Shown: positions 7,925 to 17,241 of the stretch, piece after piece
How positions within the stretch are numbered: the first letter of the stretch is position 1
Layout: every line of letters begins with the position of its first letter
Assembly: GCF_003664325.1 (NCBI RefSeq)
Contig: NZ_RCDA01000001.1
Span: 930,001 to 994,000 of the forward strand
Length of the DNA stretch: 64,000 nt
Reading direction: 5' to 3'
From: Alkalispirillum mobile
Lineage (GTDB): Bacteria; Pseudomonadota; Gammaproteobacteria; Nitrococcales; Halorhodospiraceae
Made by a program: the position numbers and the translations under genes
The notes under the pieces: generated by a model
Databases searched by the model: none
The model's input: only the letters and a program-made list of their open reading frames with translations
What the model was told of the DNA's origin: nothing

Positions 7925-8884
7925 ATGAGCGCTACCTTCCCGCAACTGCAACCGACAACCTTTCCGGCCATCCGCCGCCGCCAGCTGGAAACCCTGCAGG
8001 TAAACGTTGGCTATGTGTGCAACCAAACCTGTTTCCACTGCCACGTGAACGCCGGGCCCAACCGCAAGGAGAAGATGGACCGCGCCACCGCCGACCTGGT
8101 GCTGGACTACCTGCGCGAGTCCGGCGCACGCACCCTGGACCTGACCGGCGGGGCACCGGAGCTGAACCCGCAGTTCCACTATCTGGTGGAACAGGCCTGC
8201 GCCCTGGGGGTGCATGTCATGGACCGCTGCAATCTTACGGTACTGGAGCAGCCCGGACAGGCGGATCTGGCGGACTTTCTGGCCGCCCACCGGGTAGAGG
8301 TGGTGGCCTCGCTGCCCTGTTATTCGGCAGACAACGTCGACAGCCAGCGCGGCGAGGGGGTCTTCGAACAGAGCATCAACGGCCTGCGCAAACTCAACGC
8401 CGTGGGCTATGGTCAACCGGGAAGCGGCCTCACCCTGAACCTGGTATACAACCCCCTGGGCGCCACCCTGCCGCCCCCGCAGGGCCAACTGGAGGCGGAT
8501 TACAAGCGGCACCTGGCGGATGAATTCGGCATGGTGTTCAACGGCCTGTTCACGATCACCAACATGCCCATCCACCGCTTCGCCAAGCAGCTCCAAAAAT
8601 CCGGGCAGTACGAGACCTACATGGCCCTGCTCAAGTCCGCCTACCGGCCGGAGAACCTGGCCAACGTCATGTGCCGCAGTCTGCTCAGCGTGGACTGGCG
8701 CGGCTACGTTTACGACTGCGACTTCAACCAGATGCTCGCCATCCCGTTGGGCGCCGACGCCAAGCCCCGGAGCCACCTGCGCGATCTCATTGGACGCGAC
8801 CTCGACGGTGCCCCCATCGCCGTCGCGGACCACTGCTACGGCTGCACCGCCGGGCAAGGGTCCAGTTGCGGGGGCGCGCTATGA
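7925..8884 (+). CDS. arsS: Radical SAM protein of the ArsS (arsenosugar biosynthesis) type
   Basis: This 319-residue protein starts at ATG 7925 after a clear GGAGG. The radical-SAM 4Fe-4S motif CNQTCFHC (CxxxCxxC) lies at residues 38-45. LDLTGGAPELNP is the SAM-binding GGE-like strand. The C-terminal cysteine-rich tail [16 protein letters not shown] matches the ArsS family, whose members sometimes carry selenocysteine; here all positions are ordinary cysteine codons. ArsS transfers a 5'-deoxyadenosyl group to methylated arsenic in arsenosugar synthesis. Its usual partner, the methyltransferase ArsM, is not in this window. The stop overlaps the convergent sirtuin gene by 6 bp. Confidence 0.85.
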   Translation: MSATFPQLQPTTFPAIRRRQLETLQVNVGYVCNQTCFHCHVNAGPNRKEKMDRATADLVLDYLRESGARTLDLTGGAPELNPQFHYLVEQACALGVHVMDRCNLTVLEQPGQADLADFLAAHRVEVVASLPCYSADNVDSQRGEGVFEQSINGLRKLNAVGYGQPGSGLTLNLVYNPLGATLPPPQGQLEADYKRHLADEFGMVFNGLFTITNMPIHRFAKQLQKSGQYETYMALLKSAYRPENLANVMCRSLLSVDWRGYVYDCDFNQMLAIPLGADAKPRSHLRDLIGRDLDGAPIAVADHCYGCTAGQGSSCGGAL

Positions 8885-12186: not shown

Positions 12187-12576
12187 ATGAAACCGCTTAT
12201 CAAGACCGCCGTAACCCTGACCCTCGGCGCCGGCCTCACCGTCTCCGGACTGGCCTCGGCCCAGAACTGGACCACGTTCGTCGATCAGGTCCGGGCCAAT
12301 CCGCCGACCACCCTGTCCGAAGCCCAGGGCGCCGGTGTCGGGCAGAACTACGAGACCTGGGTCAATCATGTCCGGGATAACGGACCCGAAGAGCGGAGCT
12401 TCGGCGACCCCCTGGTCGGCCAGAACTACCTGCCATTCATCCAGTCCGTGCGCGAGCGGACCCTGCAACGCAAGCAGGCGGAGCGGCCAGGGGCCGCTCA
12501 ACCGACCGAGCGGGAACGCGCCCGGCACGGACGCAACAGCGTCCTTGACGCCAGGACCCGCAACCACGGGATCTGA
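12187..12576 (+). CDS. Small exported protein with three QNY/W repeats, unknown function
   Basis: This 129-residue protein has a clear Sec signal: KPLIKTAVTLTLGAGLTVSG followed by LASAQN, with cleavage likely after ASA. The mature part contains three related units: QNWTTFVDQVRAN, QNYETWVNHVRDN and QNYLPFIQSVRER. Each has the pattern QN-aromatic-x2-aromatic-hydrophobic-x2-VR, and they are spaced about 31-38 residues apart. A basic, disordered tail follows. AGGAGA precedes the ATG. I do not recognise a family. It is probably periplasmic, and repeats of this kind may bind a ligand or another copy of themselves. Confidence 0.75.
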   Translation: MKPLIKTAVTLTLGAGLTVSGLASAQNWTTFVDQVRANPPTTLSEAQGAGVGQNYETWVNHVRDNGPEERSFGDPLVGQNYLPFIQSVRERTLQRKQAERPGAAQPTERERARHGRNSVLDARTRNHGI

Positions 12577-12731: not shown

Positions 12732-13043
12732 ATGGCGGCCCACAGCACCATAGCGGACAAGATGTCCGGCGTACCCGAACCCGTCACGGACGCGCTAAGG
12801 GAGGGCCATCCATTGCCGGATACCCGCCTCGAGGCGCTGCGTCAGTTCACGGATATCATGGTTGAAACGCGCGGCCATCCGGGGCACGACGACCTGCAGG
12901 CCTTCCTTGACGCCGGTTACCGGGAGGCTGACGTCCTGGCGATCATTCTCGCCATTGCGGTGAAGACGCTCAGCAATTTCTCCAACCACCTGCTCCACCC
13001 GGAGGTGGATGAACTCTTCCGGGAACGTCAGTGGACCCCCTGA
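12732..13043 (+). CDS. C-terminal half of a carboxymuconolactone decarboxylase/AhpD-like protein
   Basis: This 103-residue protein aligns by eye with only the second half of the roughly 180-residue peroxidase-related CMD family. The matching segments are LEALRQFTDIMVETRG, LQAFLDAGYREADVLAIIL and KTLSNFSNHL. The N-terminal half with the CxxC/CxxxC redox motif is missing, and there is no cysteine at all. Either this is a remnant or a helical scaffold lacking redox activity. The start is unsure: ATG 12732 has a weak site and ATG 12762 is an alternative. It lies 103 bp ahead of the ligase fusion gene in the same direction and shares its upstream motif. Confidence 0.6.
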   Translation: MAAHSTIADKMSGVPEPVTDALREGHPLPDTRLEALRQFTDIMVETRGHPGHDDLQAFLDAGYREADVLAIILAIAVKTLSNFSNHLLHPEVDELFRERQWTP

Positions 13044-13146: not shown

Positions 13147-15597
13147 ATGAATGCCACAGACCACCGCCGTCGCTACTGGCTGGGCGGCAAGCGAAAACGC
13201 GAGCAGGACATCTTCTTCGAGGAGGCACTCGACCCGGCGCTGTGGCAGCCCGGGGACGCGGATGACTGGCACGCCTGCTGGTACACCGGCATGCCGCCCC
13301 GGGAGGTCTTCCGCCAGACGGGACCTGACCGAACCGTCAACCATATCCCCGGCAACAATTGCCTCACGGTCAAAAGCCGGCTCTACCAGACAGTCCACAA
13401 CCTGCAGCGACGTTTGGCGGCCAGCCGCCCGGCCGGACACCCGGACCTGACGCGAGCGGATTTCGTGCCCCGGGTCTTCAGCATGCCGGGCGACTACCAT
13501 GCCCTGCAGGCCCACGCCGCCGCCCATCCCGACAAGCGCTGGCTGCTCAAGCCGAAGAACTCGGCGCGCGGCAAGGACATCTCGCTGGTATCGGACGTCG
13601 CAGAGGTACCTACCGACGACCGCTGGATGGTGCAGGAGTACCTGAGCCAGCCGCACCTGATGCAGGGGCGCAAGTACGTCCTGCGCCTCTACGTGCTGAT
13701 CACCTCGGTGGAACCGTTACGCGTCTACCTGTACGAACAGGGGTTCGCCAAGCTCGCCTCCATGCCCTATAGCCTGGAGGATGCCGACAACCCCTACGTC
13801 CACCTCACCAATCCCGACGTCAACGCCCGCAACGAGGCCGCCGACGACCCCGTGGTCTTCGTGGACCTGGAGCGCTACCGCCGCTGGTTGCGGGAGCAGG
13901 GCCACGACGACGCGGCACTGTTCGACCGACTGCGCGATATCGTTGCGCTGACCACCATCGCGGCGCGGGAGAACCTGCGGGCACAGTTGGCGCACCAGGG
14001 CGCCGATGCGGCCGGTTGCTACGAGCTCATCGGCATGGACTGCCTGGTCGACGACCGGATCCGGCCCTGGCTGCTGGAGTGCAATCTCAGTCCCTCGCTG
14101 GGCGTTTGCGCCGCACCCGAGGATGGGGGCCACATCGAAGCCGGCATCAAGCGTCGGTTGGTGGCCGACCTGGTGGCCATGGCCGGCCTCAACGATCCGG
14201 CCCCCGACAGTACAGAGCAGCACGACGACCCCGTCGCGCGCTGGCGCGCCGAAGCGGAACGGGAGGCCCGCCACTCGGGAGGCTTCGAGCGTCTGCTCCC
14301 GACAGCCGATGCGGCCCGCTACCTCGCCTGCTTCCCCCTGCCCCGCTTCGCCGACGTGGCGCTGGCCGACAGCATGAGCGAGGCCCCAGTGAGACGCCCC
14401 GCACTGCATCGCTGGCAGGTGGCCGAGGTGATCACCGAGGAAGAACTGCTGCTTTACGGAGAAGCGCACCAGGCCCTGTACGCCCCCAATCCCACCGCCG
14501 CCCTGATCTGGCTGCACGCTACCAACGGCAAGCACCCCGACGAGATCGTCGATGCATTGCAACAGACCCTTCAGGGCGCGGACCGGGGCACCCTGGAACA
14601 GCAAGTCTGGGAGGCCCTGGCCGACTGGGCGGAGGCCGGGCTCCTGGTCCAGTGCCCGGAGCCGTTGCCGGGCGAACCGGCGGTGAAAGCCACGGCACCC
14701 CCGGGCGAAACAGCCAACAGGGATCGGGCCGACACGCCCCACACCCTCTCGCTCCGGGTGGCGCAACAGCCGCTGCACCTGCGCACCTGGAGCGGTCCGG
14801 CCGCGGAGCGCCTTTTCCCGTTGCTGGCACCGCTGGCGATGGCAGCACCCGCCGAAGAGGCGCTGCAGGTGGAAATCGGCCGCTCCCACCGAGGCTACAC
14901 GGTATTGGTGGGCGGCGAGGTGGAAGCCGAACACCTGCGGCTGGCGGAGCTGGGACCGTGGTTCGTCCGCGCCCTGCTGCGCCGTGCACCAAGCTCCGGC
15001 ACCGTGGCGGTCAGCAGCACCCTGGTGACTGTCGATCCCGCGGCACCCGACGCCGCGGTGCTGGTCTGCCGCGCCGGCGCGACCGACGACGACGGTCTGG
15101 CAGCCGCCCTGACGGGCGACACCGGTCCCGCATGGGGGAGCGGTGCCACCATCGCGCTGGCGGGTGATGGCCACGCCCGTCCGCTCGGCCTCCCGCTCCG
15201 TCGGGCCCGGCACCCTTCGACCCTTTCAGAGGACCCGCTCTGGTGGTTCGGCCAACGCGGCCATCTGGTGCCGGCGACCGGAACGCCCGGACCGGACAAC
15301 CACCTGCGGGTAGCCGCCATTCTGGTGGCGATGCCGGGTGAGCACGACGGGACACTGGACCACCTCCCCCGGCGACTGAGCCTGCGTGAAGCCCTGGGCC
15401 ATCTGCTGCCAGAAACGGCCAGCCACGGTGGTACCGGCCTCGACCGCCAGACCCTGTCACGGTTTGCCGACTGGGTGGCCCAACACCCGGTCTACGCGGT
15501 GCACCCTCGGGAAACCCCCGAGACCATCACGCGGAGGGTGTACCCCATTCTGCATGACGTCACCCAGAAAAAGAGGAAGGAAAAAGCAGTGCAATAG
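13147..15597 (+). CDS. Tubulin-tyrosine-ligase-type ATP-grasp ligase fused to PqqD-like and degenerate HprK-like domains
   Basis: This protein has 816 residues in three parts. Residues about 45-335 form a TTL-type ATP-grasp domain: LLKPKNSARGKDISLVSD, VQEYLSQPHLMQGRKYVLR, LRVYLYEQGFAKLAS, HLTNPDVNARN and the metal-binding LIGMDCLVDDRIRPWLLECN. Such enzymes use ATP to join amino acids to peptide carboxylates. Residues about 421-500 (ITEEELLLYGEAHQALY, then NPTAALIWL) resemble PqqD, the fold that binds leader peptides in peptide-maturation systems. Residues about 533-816 resemble HprK-related kinases found with PqqD-like chaperones, but the P-loop position reads CRAGATDDDG and lacks GK[ST]. It precedes a DoxX gene and a Glu/Gly-tailed peptide gene. 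Domain calls are by eye; substrate and added residue are unknown. Confidence 0.8.
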   Translation: MNATDHRRRYWLGGKRKREQDIFFEEALDPALWQPGDADDWHACWYTGMPPREVFRQTGPDRTVNHIPGNNCLTVKSRLYQTVHNLQRRLAASRPAGHPDLTRADFVPRVFSMPGDYHALQAHAAAHPDKRWLLKPKNSARGKDISLVSDVAEVPTDDRWMVQEYLSQPHLMQGRKYVLRLYVLITSVEPLRVYLYEQGFAKLASMPYSLEDADNPYVHLTNPDVNARNEAADDPVVFVDLERYRRWLREQGHDDAALFDRLRDIVALTTIAARENLRAQLAHQGADAAGCYELIGMDCLVDDRIRPWLLECNLSPSLGVCAAPEDGGHIEAGIKRRLVADLVAMAGLNDPAPDSTEQHDDPVARWRAEAEREARHSGGFERLLPTADAARYLACFPLPRFADVALADSMSEAPVRRPALHRWQVAEVITEEELLLYGEAHQALYAPNPTAALIWLHATNGKHPDEIVDALQQTLQGADRGTLEQQVWEALADWAEAGLLVQCPEPLPGEPAVKATAPPGETANRDRADTPHTLSLRVAQQPLHLRTWSGPAAERLFPLLAPLAMAAPAEEALQVEIGRSHRGYTVLVGGEVEAEHLRLAELGPWFVRALLRRAPSSGTVAVSSTLVTVDPAAPDAAVLVCRAGATDDDGLAAALTGDTGPAWGSGATIALAGDGHARPLGLPLRRARHPSTLSEDPLWWFGQRGHLVPATGTPGPDNHLRVAAILVAMPGEHDGTLDHLPRRLSLREALGHLLPETASHGGTGLDRQTLSRFADWVAQHPVYAVHPRETPETITRRVYPILHDVTQKKRKEKAVQ

Positions 15598-15734: not shown

Positions 15735-16160
15735 ATGATCATGACAGCCGCATTATCGACAGCCAATGCAGAGTTGCAGAGGGTGGAACGCCACGCCCAC
15801 TGGTTACTCCGGGCAGTAATATTCTCGGTATTCACCTACATGGGTGTCGACAAGTTTCTGGGTGCAGGCATCGGTCCCTGGGCCGAAATGATGGGCCTCC
15901 CCCTGGGTGTTGCCCTACTCGTGGCCCTCGCAGAAATCGCCGCTGGCGTCCTGGTGGTACTCGGCGCCCTGACCAACGGCTGGGTCACCCGGCTCGGTGC
16001 ACTGGCCACAGTGCCGGTATTGCTGGGCGCGATTTTCATGGTGCATTGGGGCCAGTGGCACTTCATGCCTACGGCGACCCATCCCATGGGCGGGATGATG
16101 TTTCAGGTGAGCCTGCTATTCGTGGCGCTTTATCTCCTGGCGAGGGGCAACAAGCAATGA
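15735..16160 (+). CDS. DoxX family membrane protein
   Basis: This 141-residue protein has four hydrophobic segments: about residues 22-40, LGVALLVALAEIAAGVLVVLG-like 50-75, ATVPVLLGAIFMVHWG 85-100, and VSLLFVALYLLA at the end. FTYMGVDKFLGAG and the Trp/His-containing GQWHFMP loop fit the DoxX group of small membrane proteins, associated with quinone- or thiol-linked redox reactions and often found in peptide-maturation clusters. ATG 15735 follows GAGGGTG by seven bases. It lies between the ligase fusion and the acidic-tailed peptide genes, all in the same direction. Confidence 0.78.
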   Translation: MIMTAALSTANAELQRVERHAHWLLRAVIFSVFTYMGVDKFLGAGIGPWAEMMGLPLGVALLVALAEIAAGVLVVLGALTNGWVTRLGALATVPVLLGAIFMVHWGQWHFMPTATHPMGGMMFQVSLLFVALYLLARGNKQ

Positions 16161-16256: not shown

Positions 16257-16517
16257 ATGAGTGACGACAAAACAGTCCGACAGCAGTTGCTGCGCACTTT
16301 ATCGCGCAGCGTCGCCTACACCGTACCCGTACTGGCGATCGTCGGCGGCAGCGCCGGCATCCACGCCATCATGTCTGATGCGGTCGCCGACAGTGGCTAC
16401 CAGATGATGGCCGCCGCGGAGGCTGCCGGCGAGGCCGAGGCGGAAGGTGAAGGCGAAGGAGAGGCCGAGGGTGAAGGTGAAGGTGAAGGTGAAGCGGAGG
16501 GTGAAGGCGGCTACTGA
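16257..16517 (+). CDS. Small membrane-anchored peptide with tubulin-like Glu/Gly tail
   Basis: This 86-residue peptide starts at ATG 16257 after an ideal AGGAGG. Upstream ATGs in frame lack such a site. Residues 1-18 are basic-amphipathic (MSDDKTVRQQLLRTLSR). Residues 20-39 are hydrophobic (YTVPVLAIVGGSAGIHAIM), giving one membrane helix or an uncleaved signal. From residue 55 the chain is almost only Glu, Gly and Ala in EG/EA/EAEG units, ending EGEGGY. This tail recalls alpha-tubulin, which ends in EGEEY and is the substrate of tyrosine and glutamate ligases. A TTL-type ligase lies 660 bp upstream, so this is the natural candidate substrate. The function is unproven. Confidence 0.78.
   Translation: MSDDKTVRQQLLRTLSRSVAYTVPVLAIVGGSAGIHAIMSDAVADSGYQMMAAAEAAGEAEAEGEGEGEAEGEGEGEGEAEGEGGY
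16432..16514 (+). repeat. Hexanucleotide tandem repeat (GARGGN) encoding Glu-Gly
   Basis: Repeating GAAGGT/GAAGGC/GAGGGT units with occasional GAGGCC or GAAGCG encode the EG/EA tail. Synonymous third-base changes interrupt the DNA repeat while the protein pattern is kept, which suggests selection on the protein. Copy number could still vary by slippage in steps of two residues. Confidence 0.8.
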
Positions 16518-16659: not shown

Positions 16660-17241
16660 ATGGGGTATCAGCACGAATGCATGAACGGTCATCCCGTCAC
16701 CGCCAGCCTGGTGGATGATAACCGGCATTTCCTCCGGCAACTGGCCGGCCTCGTTGGCGAGCTGGACGCTGAACGCTTCCGGGCCTGCAGCGGGCCTTAC
16801 GGCGGTAACGGTATCGGCAGACAGGTCCGACACATCCTTGAGCATGTGCAGTCGCTGCTGGCCGGTGCCCGGGGTGAACTCGATTACGATGACCGCGATC
16901 GGGACCCGGTGCTGGAACGGGACCCGGACCGCGCTCTGGAAACGTTGGCCAGGCTGGATGACCGGCTCGGCCAGGAGCTGGCAGCCCTGGCTCCGGACAC
17001 ACCCCTTCGCGTCGCCTGCGTCTGCAACACGGCATCGGGCCCCCACCGGACCTGGACACCCTCCAGCCTCCAGCGGGAGTTGATGTTCCTCATCAGCCAC
17101 ACGGTGCACCACATGGCATTGATCGCCATGCTCGCGGAGGAGGCCGGCCTGCGGCCCGGTGAAGAGTTCGGGGTTGCGCCATCGACGCTTCGCCACTGGC
17201 GCGCCAAGCCATCGTTCGCCGTGCCGGCGTCTGCGGGCTGA
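16660..17241 (+). CDS. DinB-fold (YfiT-like) putative metal-dependent protein
   Basis: The start is ATG 16660, with AGGGA seven bases upstream; the open frame before it overlaps the peptide gene and is not coding. The 193-residue protein has the four-helix DinB pattern, with candidate metal-binding His in GRQVRHILEHVQSLL (N-terminal helix) and in SHTVHHMALIAMLAEEAGL (HxxxH-like C-terminal helix). Characterised relatives are thiol-dependent transferases and the iron-binding helper domain of EgtB-type enzymes. Four cysteines (CMNG, CSGP, CVCN) are scattered through it. It is last in the rightward group that includes the ligase and peptide genes, so it may belong to that system. Confidence 0.7.
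   Translation: MGYQHECMNGHPVTASLVDDNRHFLRQLAGLVGELDAERFRACSGPYGGNGIGRQVRHILEHVQSLLAGARGELDYDDRDRDPVLERDPDRALETLARLDDRLGQELAALAPDTPLRVACVCNTASGPHRTWTPSSLQRELMFLISHTVHHMALIAMLAEEAGLRPGEEFGVAPSTLRHWRAKPSFAVPASAG

Follow-up and report, generated by a model that had tools for sequence, protein, structure and literature searches.

A tubulin-tyrosine-ligase-like enzyme of Alkalispirillum mobile with a PqqD-like, putatively leader-binding domain, a P-loop-less HprK-type domain and candidate glutamate-repeat substrates

The forward strand of a 64,000-nucleotide stretch of the Alkalispirillum mobile genome (contig NZ_RCDA01000001.1, positions 930,001 to 994,000; hereafter the window) encodes an 816-residue enzyme that combines a tubulin-tyrosine-ligase-like (TTL) ligase, a recognition element of ribosomally synthesized and post-translationally modified peptides (RiPPs) of the lasso type (RiPP recognition element, RRE), and an HprK-type kinase domain that has lost its phosphate-binding loop (Table 1). 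The enzyme is probably an RRE-guided ligase that modifies glutamate repeats of exported proteins, and its kinase domain would have given up catalysis and taken on a structural part or the positioning of the substrate. Within the order, 17 of 54 genomes (its own included) have an orthologue, and scanning GTDB genomes yielded 68 loci (loci carry L numbers), the latter including Marinobacter, Onishia, Modicisalibacter, Chromohalobacter, Aquisalimonas, other Ectothiorhodospiraceae, Robiginitomaculum, Marinicaulis, Parvularculaceae, Pararhodobacter and Arenicella, among others. Residue counts refer to an alignment of 73 rows, comprising the 62 of these 68 loci with an enzyme of at least 750 residues, the window's enzyme and L002-L011; the loci left out were cut by contig ends (L071, L090) or had shorter frames (L053, L067, L078, L093). 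At least seven rows represented the same gene in two collections and were removed in a 53-row set (under 85% identity). No prior description of a bacterial TTL-PqqD enzyme or of the repeats described below was found among the matches listed in the open-access literature.

The C-terminal part of the protein matched no Pfam or NCBIfam model at E <= 10, nor did any of 63 homologous C-termini, scanned one by one, match an HprK model, HprK_rel_A and HprK_rel_B included (same threshold); thus family look-up was unable to reveal a resemblance to HprK. A profile search of PDB sequences with the C-terminal domain also returned no match to HprK or phosphoenolpyruvate carboxykinase (PEPCK). Comparison of hidden Markov models (HMMs) built from 53 C-terminal domains and from 30 P-loop-bearing HprK-type kinases gave a probability of 99.4 and a score of 154.75 over 276 columns, against 16.84 for the reversed profile and a maximum of 18.94 in 59 column shuffles, by which a chance resemblance was ruled out. 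In this alignment, the kinase stretch LPALSGNGKSTLTAAL fell on VCRAGATDDDGLAAAL, the loop singled out by an earlier sequence-only reading of the window. That reading had assigned the last ~280 residues (14743-15597, residues 533-816; the first modelled strand begins at about residue 532) the layout of HprK-related kinases that travel with PqqD-like proteins, and both the layout and the link were borne out, the profile matches including PqqD-HprK fusions with the same domain order. Specifically, when the domain HMM was run on 37 HprK-type kinase loci at E <= 1e-3, it matched nine of the 11 PqqD-HprK loci, the best at 9e-21, and 16 of the 26 HprK_rel_A-type loci, and a P-loop was present in all 25 matched kinase open reading frames (ORFs). 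Moreover, a full-enzyme profile searched against 398 genomes of the phylum matched the P-loop kinases L144-L148 (E 1.2e-14 to 2.8e-6), covering profile positions 413-790 in L144 (E 1.2e-14) and 528-794 in L147 (E 5.8e-8); judged by eye, L148 has the opposite order, its PqqD-like stretch lying behind the kinase. A search of the class turned up two P-loop-bearing proteins that matched in the PqqD part, the PqqD-HprK fusions L028 (ALSGSGKS) and L030 (ALSGNGKS), which scored 98.6 and 93.4 bits with TIGR04352 (HprK_rel_A), both under its cut-off of 200. By these profile relationships, the last ~285 residues form a genuine, though degenerate, domain of the HprK type. The A. mobile genome also carries an HprK_rel_A-like kinase with the loop APPGAGKS (L140, at ~1684851 of the same contig, ~0.74 Mb away).

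The predicted structure was in line with this assignment. The AlphaFold model of the C-terminal domain, derived from 63 sequences, reached a mean pLDDT of 87.9 and a pTM of 0.85 and has a predicted PEPCK/HprK fold, with PEPCK as the best PDB match in Foldseek (2pxz, E 8.6e-3, probability 0.96) and in VIA-align (Z 14.5, 3.8 Å, 255 residues). In the model, a strand reaching residue 641 is joined by the loop to a helix that begins at 650; this is the strand-loop-helix arrangement of P-loops, but the binding residues are missing. The ranking of the matches speaks less well for HprK, as Foldseek returned no PDB chain at E <= 0.001, HprK ranked only third there with a weak match (Coxiella 3tqf_B, E 0.31, probability 0.51, target TM 0.55), and all 50 VIA-align rows listed were PEPCK, with HprK absent among them. 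Since PEPCK stands above HprK in both searches, the domain could be read as a distinct PEPCK-like or unrelated one; this is hardly credible given that the sequence profiles match HprK-related kinases, that a kinase classification places HPr kinase and PEPCK in one group and treats them as one family (PMC1079889), and that the solved HprK chain listed (3tqf_B) is only 150 residues long. The structural comparison with HPr kinase proposed by the sequence-only reading did not refute it at the level of the PEPCK/HprK fold, with HprK itself a weak Foldseek match.

The same reading had described the loop as CRAGATDDDG lacking GK[ST], which proved correct for the window's enzyme and held across its orthologues. 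Walker A (GxxGxGK[ST]) was absent from the C-terminal domain in the 73 aligned rows. The kinase lysine aligned with Asp648 and the kinase serine with Asp649; the former column held Lys in none of the 73 rows (Trp in 26, Arg in 10, others, and two gaps), and the latter held Ser or Thr in three and Asp in 57 (41 of 53 after redundancy removal). Likewise, the Asp of the kinase TDEL motif (as in L030) fell on residue 665, where no row had Asp or Glu, and its Glu fell on residue 666, occupied by Gly in 63 rows, Ala in nine and Asp in one. A search for an orthologue with an intact P-loop found none among the 68 genes, as GK[ST] occurred past residue 480 in four (L041, L045, L088, L096) and never at the loop. 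The loss was common to the Alpha- and Gammaproteobacterial TTL fusions and, because the Lys/Ser pair and the acidic motif are gone across the sampled fusions, it most likely occurred at or before their last common ancestor. The pseudo-HprK domain and the PqqD-like RRE would most likely derive from a PqqD-HprK fusion kinase, and the simplest history would be that a leader-reading peptide kinase of this type joined a TTL ligase, after which the kinase half lost catalysis. It is quite unlikely that the domain has kept some non-canonical binding of nucleotide or metal and is an active or regulatory kinase or phosphatase in which the conserved Asp does new chemistry: the conservation of Asp649 and Gly666 and the purifying selection described below would fit such an activity, but the P-loop Lys is absent, the loop is otherwise unconserved, the following motif has no acid, and an Asp at the beginning of a helix may simply cap its N-terminus.

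The pseudo-HprK domain is under purifying selection, yet it is less constrained than the ligase: the median ratio of nonsynonymous to synonymous substitutions (dN/dS) between close pairs was 0.22 for this domain and 0.068 for TTL, based on 83 of 90 pairs (seven were dropped as saturated or with a domain dS outside 0.1-1.6) that are not independent, stemming from 35 genes with both partners from Marinobacter in 63 of the 90. These values bear on whether the domain is an inert remnant from the ancestral fusion that persists as a linker or solubility tag. Its fast divergence (16-27% identity to the window's domain) and its absence from six genomes of one genus (see below) agree with such a remnant, which is nevertheless rather unlikely considering the dN/dS of 0.22, the full-length enzyme in 62 of the 68 loci and the well-folded predicted structure.

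In the catalytic part, Pfam found the TTL family PF03133 at 192 bits against a cut-off of 20.1, with two weak ATP-grasp matches inside the same region in addition to the PqqD match. Arg180, Asp298, Glu311 and Asn313 were invariant in all 73 rows, and the TTL catalytic and ATP-grasp motifs were present. In the PDB, the enzyme profile matched TTLL6 (9.6e-66), TTLL7 (5e-57) and TTLL11 (2e-31) much better than TTL (2.4e-17), placing the TTL domain nearest to the polyglutamylases TTLL6/7/11 among solved structures. According to PMC7970040, Q180 and H362 of TTLL6 favor elongation over initiation, whereas Arg180 and Ile362 favor gamma-linked addition; Q180 is also treated in PMC12366701. Of the two TTLL6 entries among PDB sequences, one has GCQGRG with EVNHSPS and the other GARGRG with EVNISPS, which is this very difference; to go by their spacing, the letters correspond to C179/Q180/H362. 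The initiation-type variant (GARGRG) outscored the other with the enzyme profile (226 versus 219.5 bits). The position of Q180 is Arg141 in the window's enzyme (Arg in 67 and Lys in six of 73 rows) and that of H362 is Leu314 (Leu in all 73). Judged by these residues, the fusions resemble engineered initiation-type TTLL6 and have an initiation-type active-site setting, as the formation of branches on side chains within a repeat requires. A stand-alone TTL of 367 residues was also observed (L130:7759-8862), in a genome whose P-loop PqqD-HprK lies on a different contig (L129).

The RRE, for its part, lies above the cut-off of the PqqD model and matched the lasso RREs TbiB1 (1.8e-4) and TfuB1 (4.9e-3) in PDB profiles. 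This resemblance, together with the YxxP-like leaders of adjacent Glu-repeat proteins, supports placing the enzyme in a cassette for RRE-guided peptide maturation; PMC12710340 and PMC10368454 report YxxP(xL) as the leader recognition motif of lasso peptides. The 86-residue ORF downstream of the enzyme gene has the leader LLRTLSRSVAYTVPVL (YxxPxL) within the longer stretch RQQLLRTLSRSVAYTVPVL, followed by the tail AEAAGEAEAEGEGEGEAEGEGEGEGEAEGEGGY.

Table 1. Coordinates of the enzyme, its domains and the neighboring genes in the window.
Feature	Position	Strand	Basis
TTL-PqqD-pseudoHprK enzyme, 816 residues	13147..15597	+	open reading frame; full-length AlphaFold model, pLDDT 86.9, pTM 0.85
TTL (tubulin-tyrosine-ligase-like) ATP-grasp domain, residues 61-322	13327..14112	+	PF03133, E 1.4e-56
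PqqD/RRE domain, residues 441-500	14467..14646	+	PF05402, E 5e-8, 33.6 bits (cut-off 23.4)
Pseudo-HprK domain, residues ~532-816 (~285 residues)	14740..15594	+	HMM-HMM comparison, domain HMM matching P-loop kinases, fold
Degenerate P-loop CRAGATDDDG, residues 641-650	15067..15096	+	profile alignment, column counts
DoxX-family membrane protein	15735..16160	+	PF07681, E 6e-9; homologue in 12/74 loci
Candidate substrate, 86 residues, AEGE/GEGE repeats, end GEGGY	16257..16517	+	sequence; AGGAGG just upstream
DinB-family protein	16660..17241	+	PF12867, E 7.5e-8; homologue in 29/74 TTL loci

Candidate substrates of the same kind were widespread next to the enzyme. A filter that required a YxxP-like leader followed by an acidic repeat found at least one candidate, with leader and repeat core, beside the enzyme in 60 of the 68 loci. 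The candidates comprised 51 small acidic peptides, spread over 45 loci, and 31 longer CxxCH proteins in 31 loci, and all 82 were at most 2.5 kb away from the gene of the enzyme, in flanks that extended up to ~5 kb. Run on a control of 219,000 bp, which included the window and partly overlapped itself (L099-L128 with L129-L133), the filter gave a single match, namely the window's ORF at 16257-16517. The tyrosine position of YxxP held Tyr in 40, Val in 10 and Phe in one of the 51 small candidates, and Tyr in 13 and Val in 18 of the 31 cytochrome-type ones. The latter (e.g., L034:9183-9857, L057:3974-4771 and L065:3996-4754, and those at 28 further loci) have the same leader and repeats of the AEGE, AEGK or HAKGE type; in the three that were scanned with Pfam, a SoxA/TsdA cytochrome c model scored above its cut-off and the repeat lay between leader and haem domain. 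These CxxCH proteins are candidates for a second, larger substrate of the ligase. In the Alphaproteobacterial loci L077, L080, L085, L086, L093 and L096, V-x-x-P replaces YxxP and the leader is followed by a lipobox-like LLAAC or LVAGC, as if these precursors were exported as lipoproteins. In the genus whose TTL-PqqD enzyme lacks the C-terminal domain (see below), precursors with the same leader but with PEAT repeats, located next to DoxX, were seen in two of six genomes (L138:9149-9514 and L139:8302-8583), and no precursor candidate was seen in the other four (L134-L137). The window's candidate substrate ends in EGEGGY (16497-16514), and candidates at L019, L020, L084, L089 and L053 end in SGY, DGY, GSY or GGY; the acidic Gly/Glu tail with its final Tyr presumably resembles those of alpha-tubulin. 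Two upstream ORFs were dropped as partners, one signal-peptide-like (12187-12573, homologues in none of 74 loci) and one at 12732-13043 (homologues in three of 74). An ArsS-type radical SAM protein at 7925-8884 (TIGR04167, 461 bits) bears no relation to the ligase.

In the favored reading, the RRE would capture the leader of the precursor and the TTL domain, using ATP, would ligate amino acids onto the Glu repeats before export; the added residue would most likely be Glu, most likely on side-chain carboxylates. The pseudo-HprK domain, coming from a peptide-holding ancestor, may then position the peptide or stabilize the enzyme instead of phosphorylating. Another use of the TTL enzyme would be the formation of intramolecular cross-links, such as graspetide-like lactams or lactones, in place of amino-acid addition. 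ATP-grasp ligases of graspetides are described as doing so in PMC8939145, and Lys occurs in many repeats; however, K, S, T, Y and C are all missing from the repeat in 16 of 50 small-peptide tails, and the nearest solved structures are the amino-acid-adding TTLLs, which makes cross-linking unlikely.

Several further observations weigh against an RRE-guided Glu-repeat ligase with a substrate-positioning pseudo-HprK domain. In six genomes of one genus (L012-L017), the TTL-PqqD enzyme stops after PqqD, and no separate C-terminal domain was found nearby (domain HMM matches in none of the six, versus all four positive controls), so the pseudo-HprK domain, for which the sequence-only reading had proposed a possible role as a scaffold or sensor for the ligase, is dispensable in that genus. 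As to the candidates themselves, the filter was written after some of the same loci had been seen, an earlier and stricter tail filter found candidates in only 40 of the 68 loci, and the final one was empty in eight, to which looser inspection added L071, L092, L097 and an ambiguous L069. Furthermore, TTLL7 has Met rather than Arg at the Q180 position, which is therefore not specificity-defining on its own.

Here a P-loop peptide kinase has, by all appearances, become a pseudo-enzyme within a ligase, and the case is a clear one. With active relatives, the loss and ongoing constraint all visible, catalysis and substrate binding of HprK-type peptide kinases should be experimentally separable. 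In addition, the genomic context suggests that TTL modification of Glu tails, known from eukaryotic microtubules, also occurs in bacteria, where RiPP leaders would guide it to exported peptides and cytochromes, with a candidate substrate identifiable straight from the genome.

Among known systems, the PqqD-HprK kinases (NCBIfam HprK_rel_A, TIGR04352) share with the C-terminal half of the enzyme the order of PqqD and HprK, a similar length and direct profile matches, but they keep GxxGxGK[ST] and have no TTL, whereas the window's domain is P-loop-less and does not match TIGR04352. Their cassettes contain an NTP_transf_5 gene (PF14907 in four of four scanned), and at several of their loci a short, exported-looking peptide adjoins with the leader GKFAVYTPPAM or CGRFAAVTPPAM, resembling the leaders of the TTL loci. 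Such short peptides with GKFA/GRFA..TPPA leaders lie at L129:2850-3065, L144:3528-4004, L145:2655-2927 and L152:1939-2184, near P-loop PqqD-HprK kinases and, where scanned, also near NTP_transf_5 genes; they are possibly a separate family of kinase-modified peptides. Lasso-peptide kinases, HPr kinase homologues described in PMC8498205 as phosphorylating lasso precursors at a C-terminal Ser, likewise place an HprK-type domain within an RRE-guided peptide pathway. They are active, in contrast to the window's domain, whose loop is lost and which is fused to a TTL ligase. RiPPs of the Bufferin/HvfA type have exported precursors with a Cys core; the likeness lies in the export and in the DoxX neighbor (12 of 74 loci), and the difference in the TTL ligase and in Glu repeats instead of a Cys core, the HvfX match being weak (18.5 bits against a cut-off of 80). 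The eukaryotic polyglutamylases TTLL6, TTLL7 and TTLL11 share the TTL catalytic domain, the enzyme's KPKN, KYxLR, HLTN, ELxGxD and LECNxSPS aligning with TTLL6 motifs, and their acceptors are Glu-rich tails. The enzyme differs from them in being bacterial, in the RRE and pseudo-HprK that follow its catalytic domain, and in exported repeats as candidate acceptors. On an evenly balanced judgement, the system may be a bacterial, RiPP-like counterpart of the polyglutamylation of tubulin tails and a new class of RRE-guided modification, in which a TTLL-type ligase with initiation-type residues in its active site, guided by a lasso-type RRE and aided by a pseudo-HprK clamp that would hold the substrate, would add amino acids to Glu repeats in exported small peptides and c-type cytochromes of Proteobacteria.

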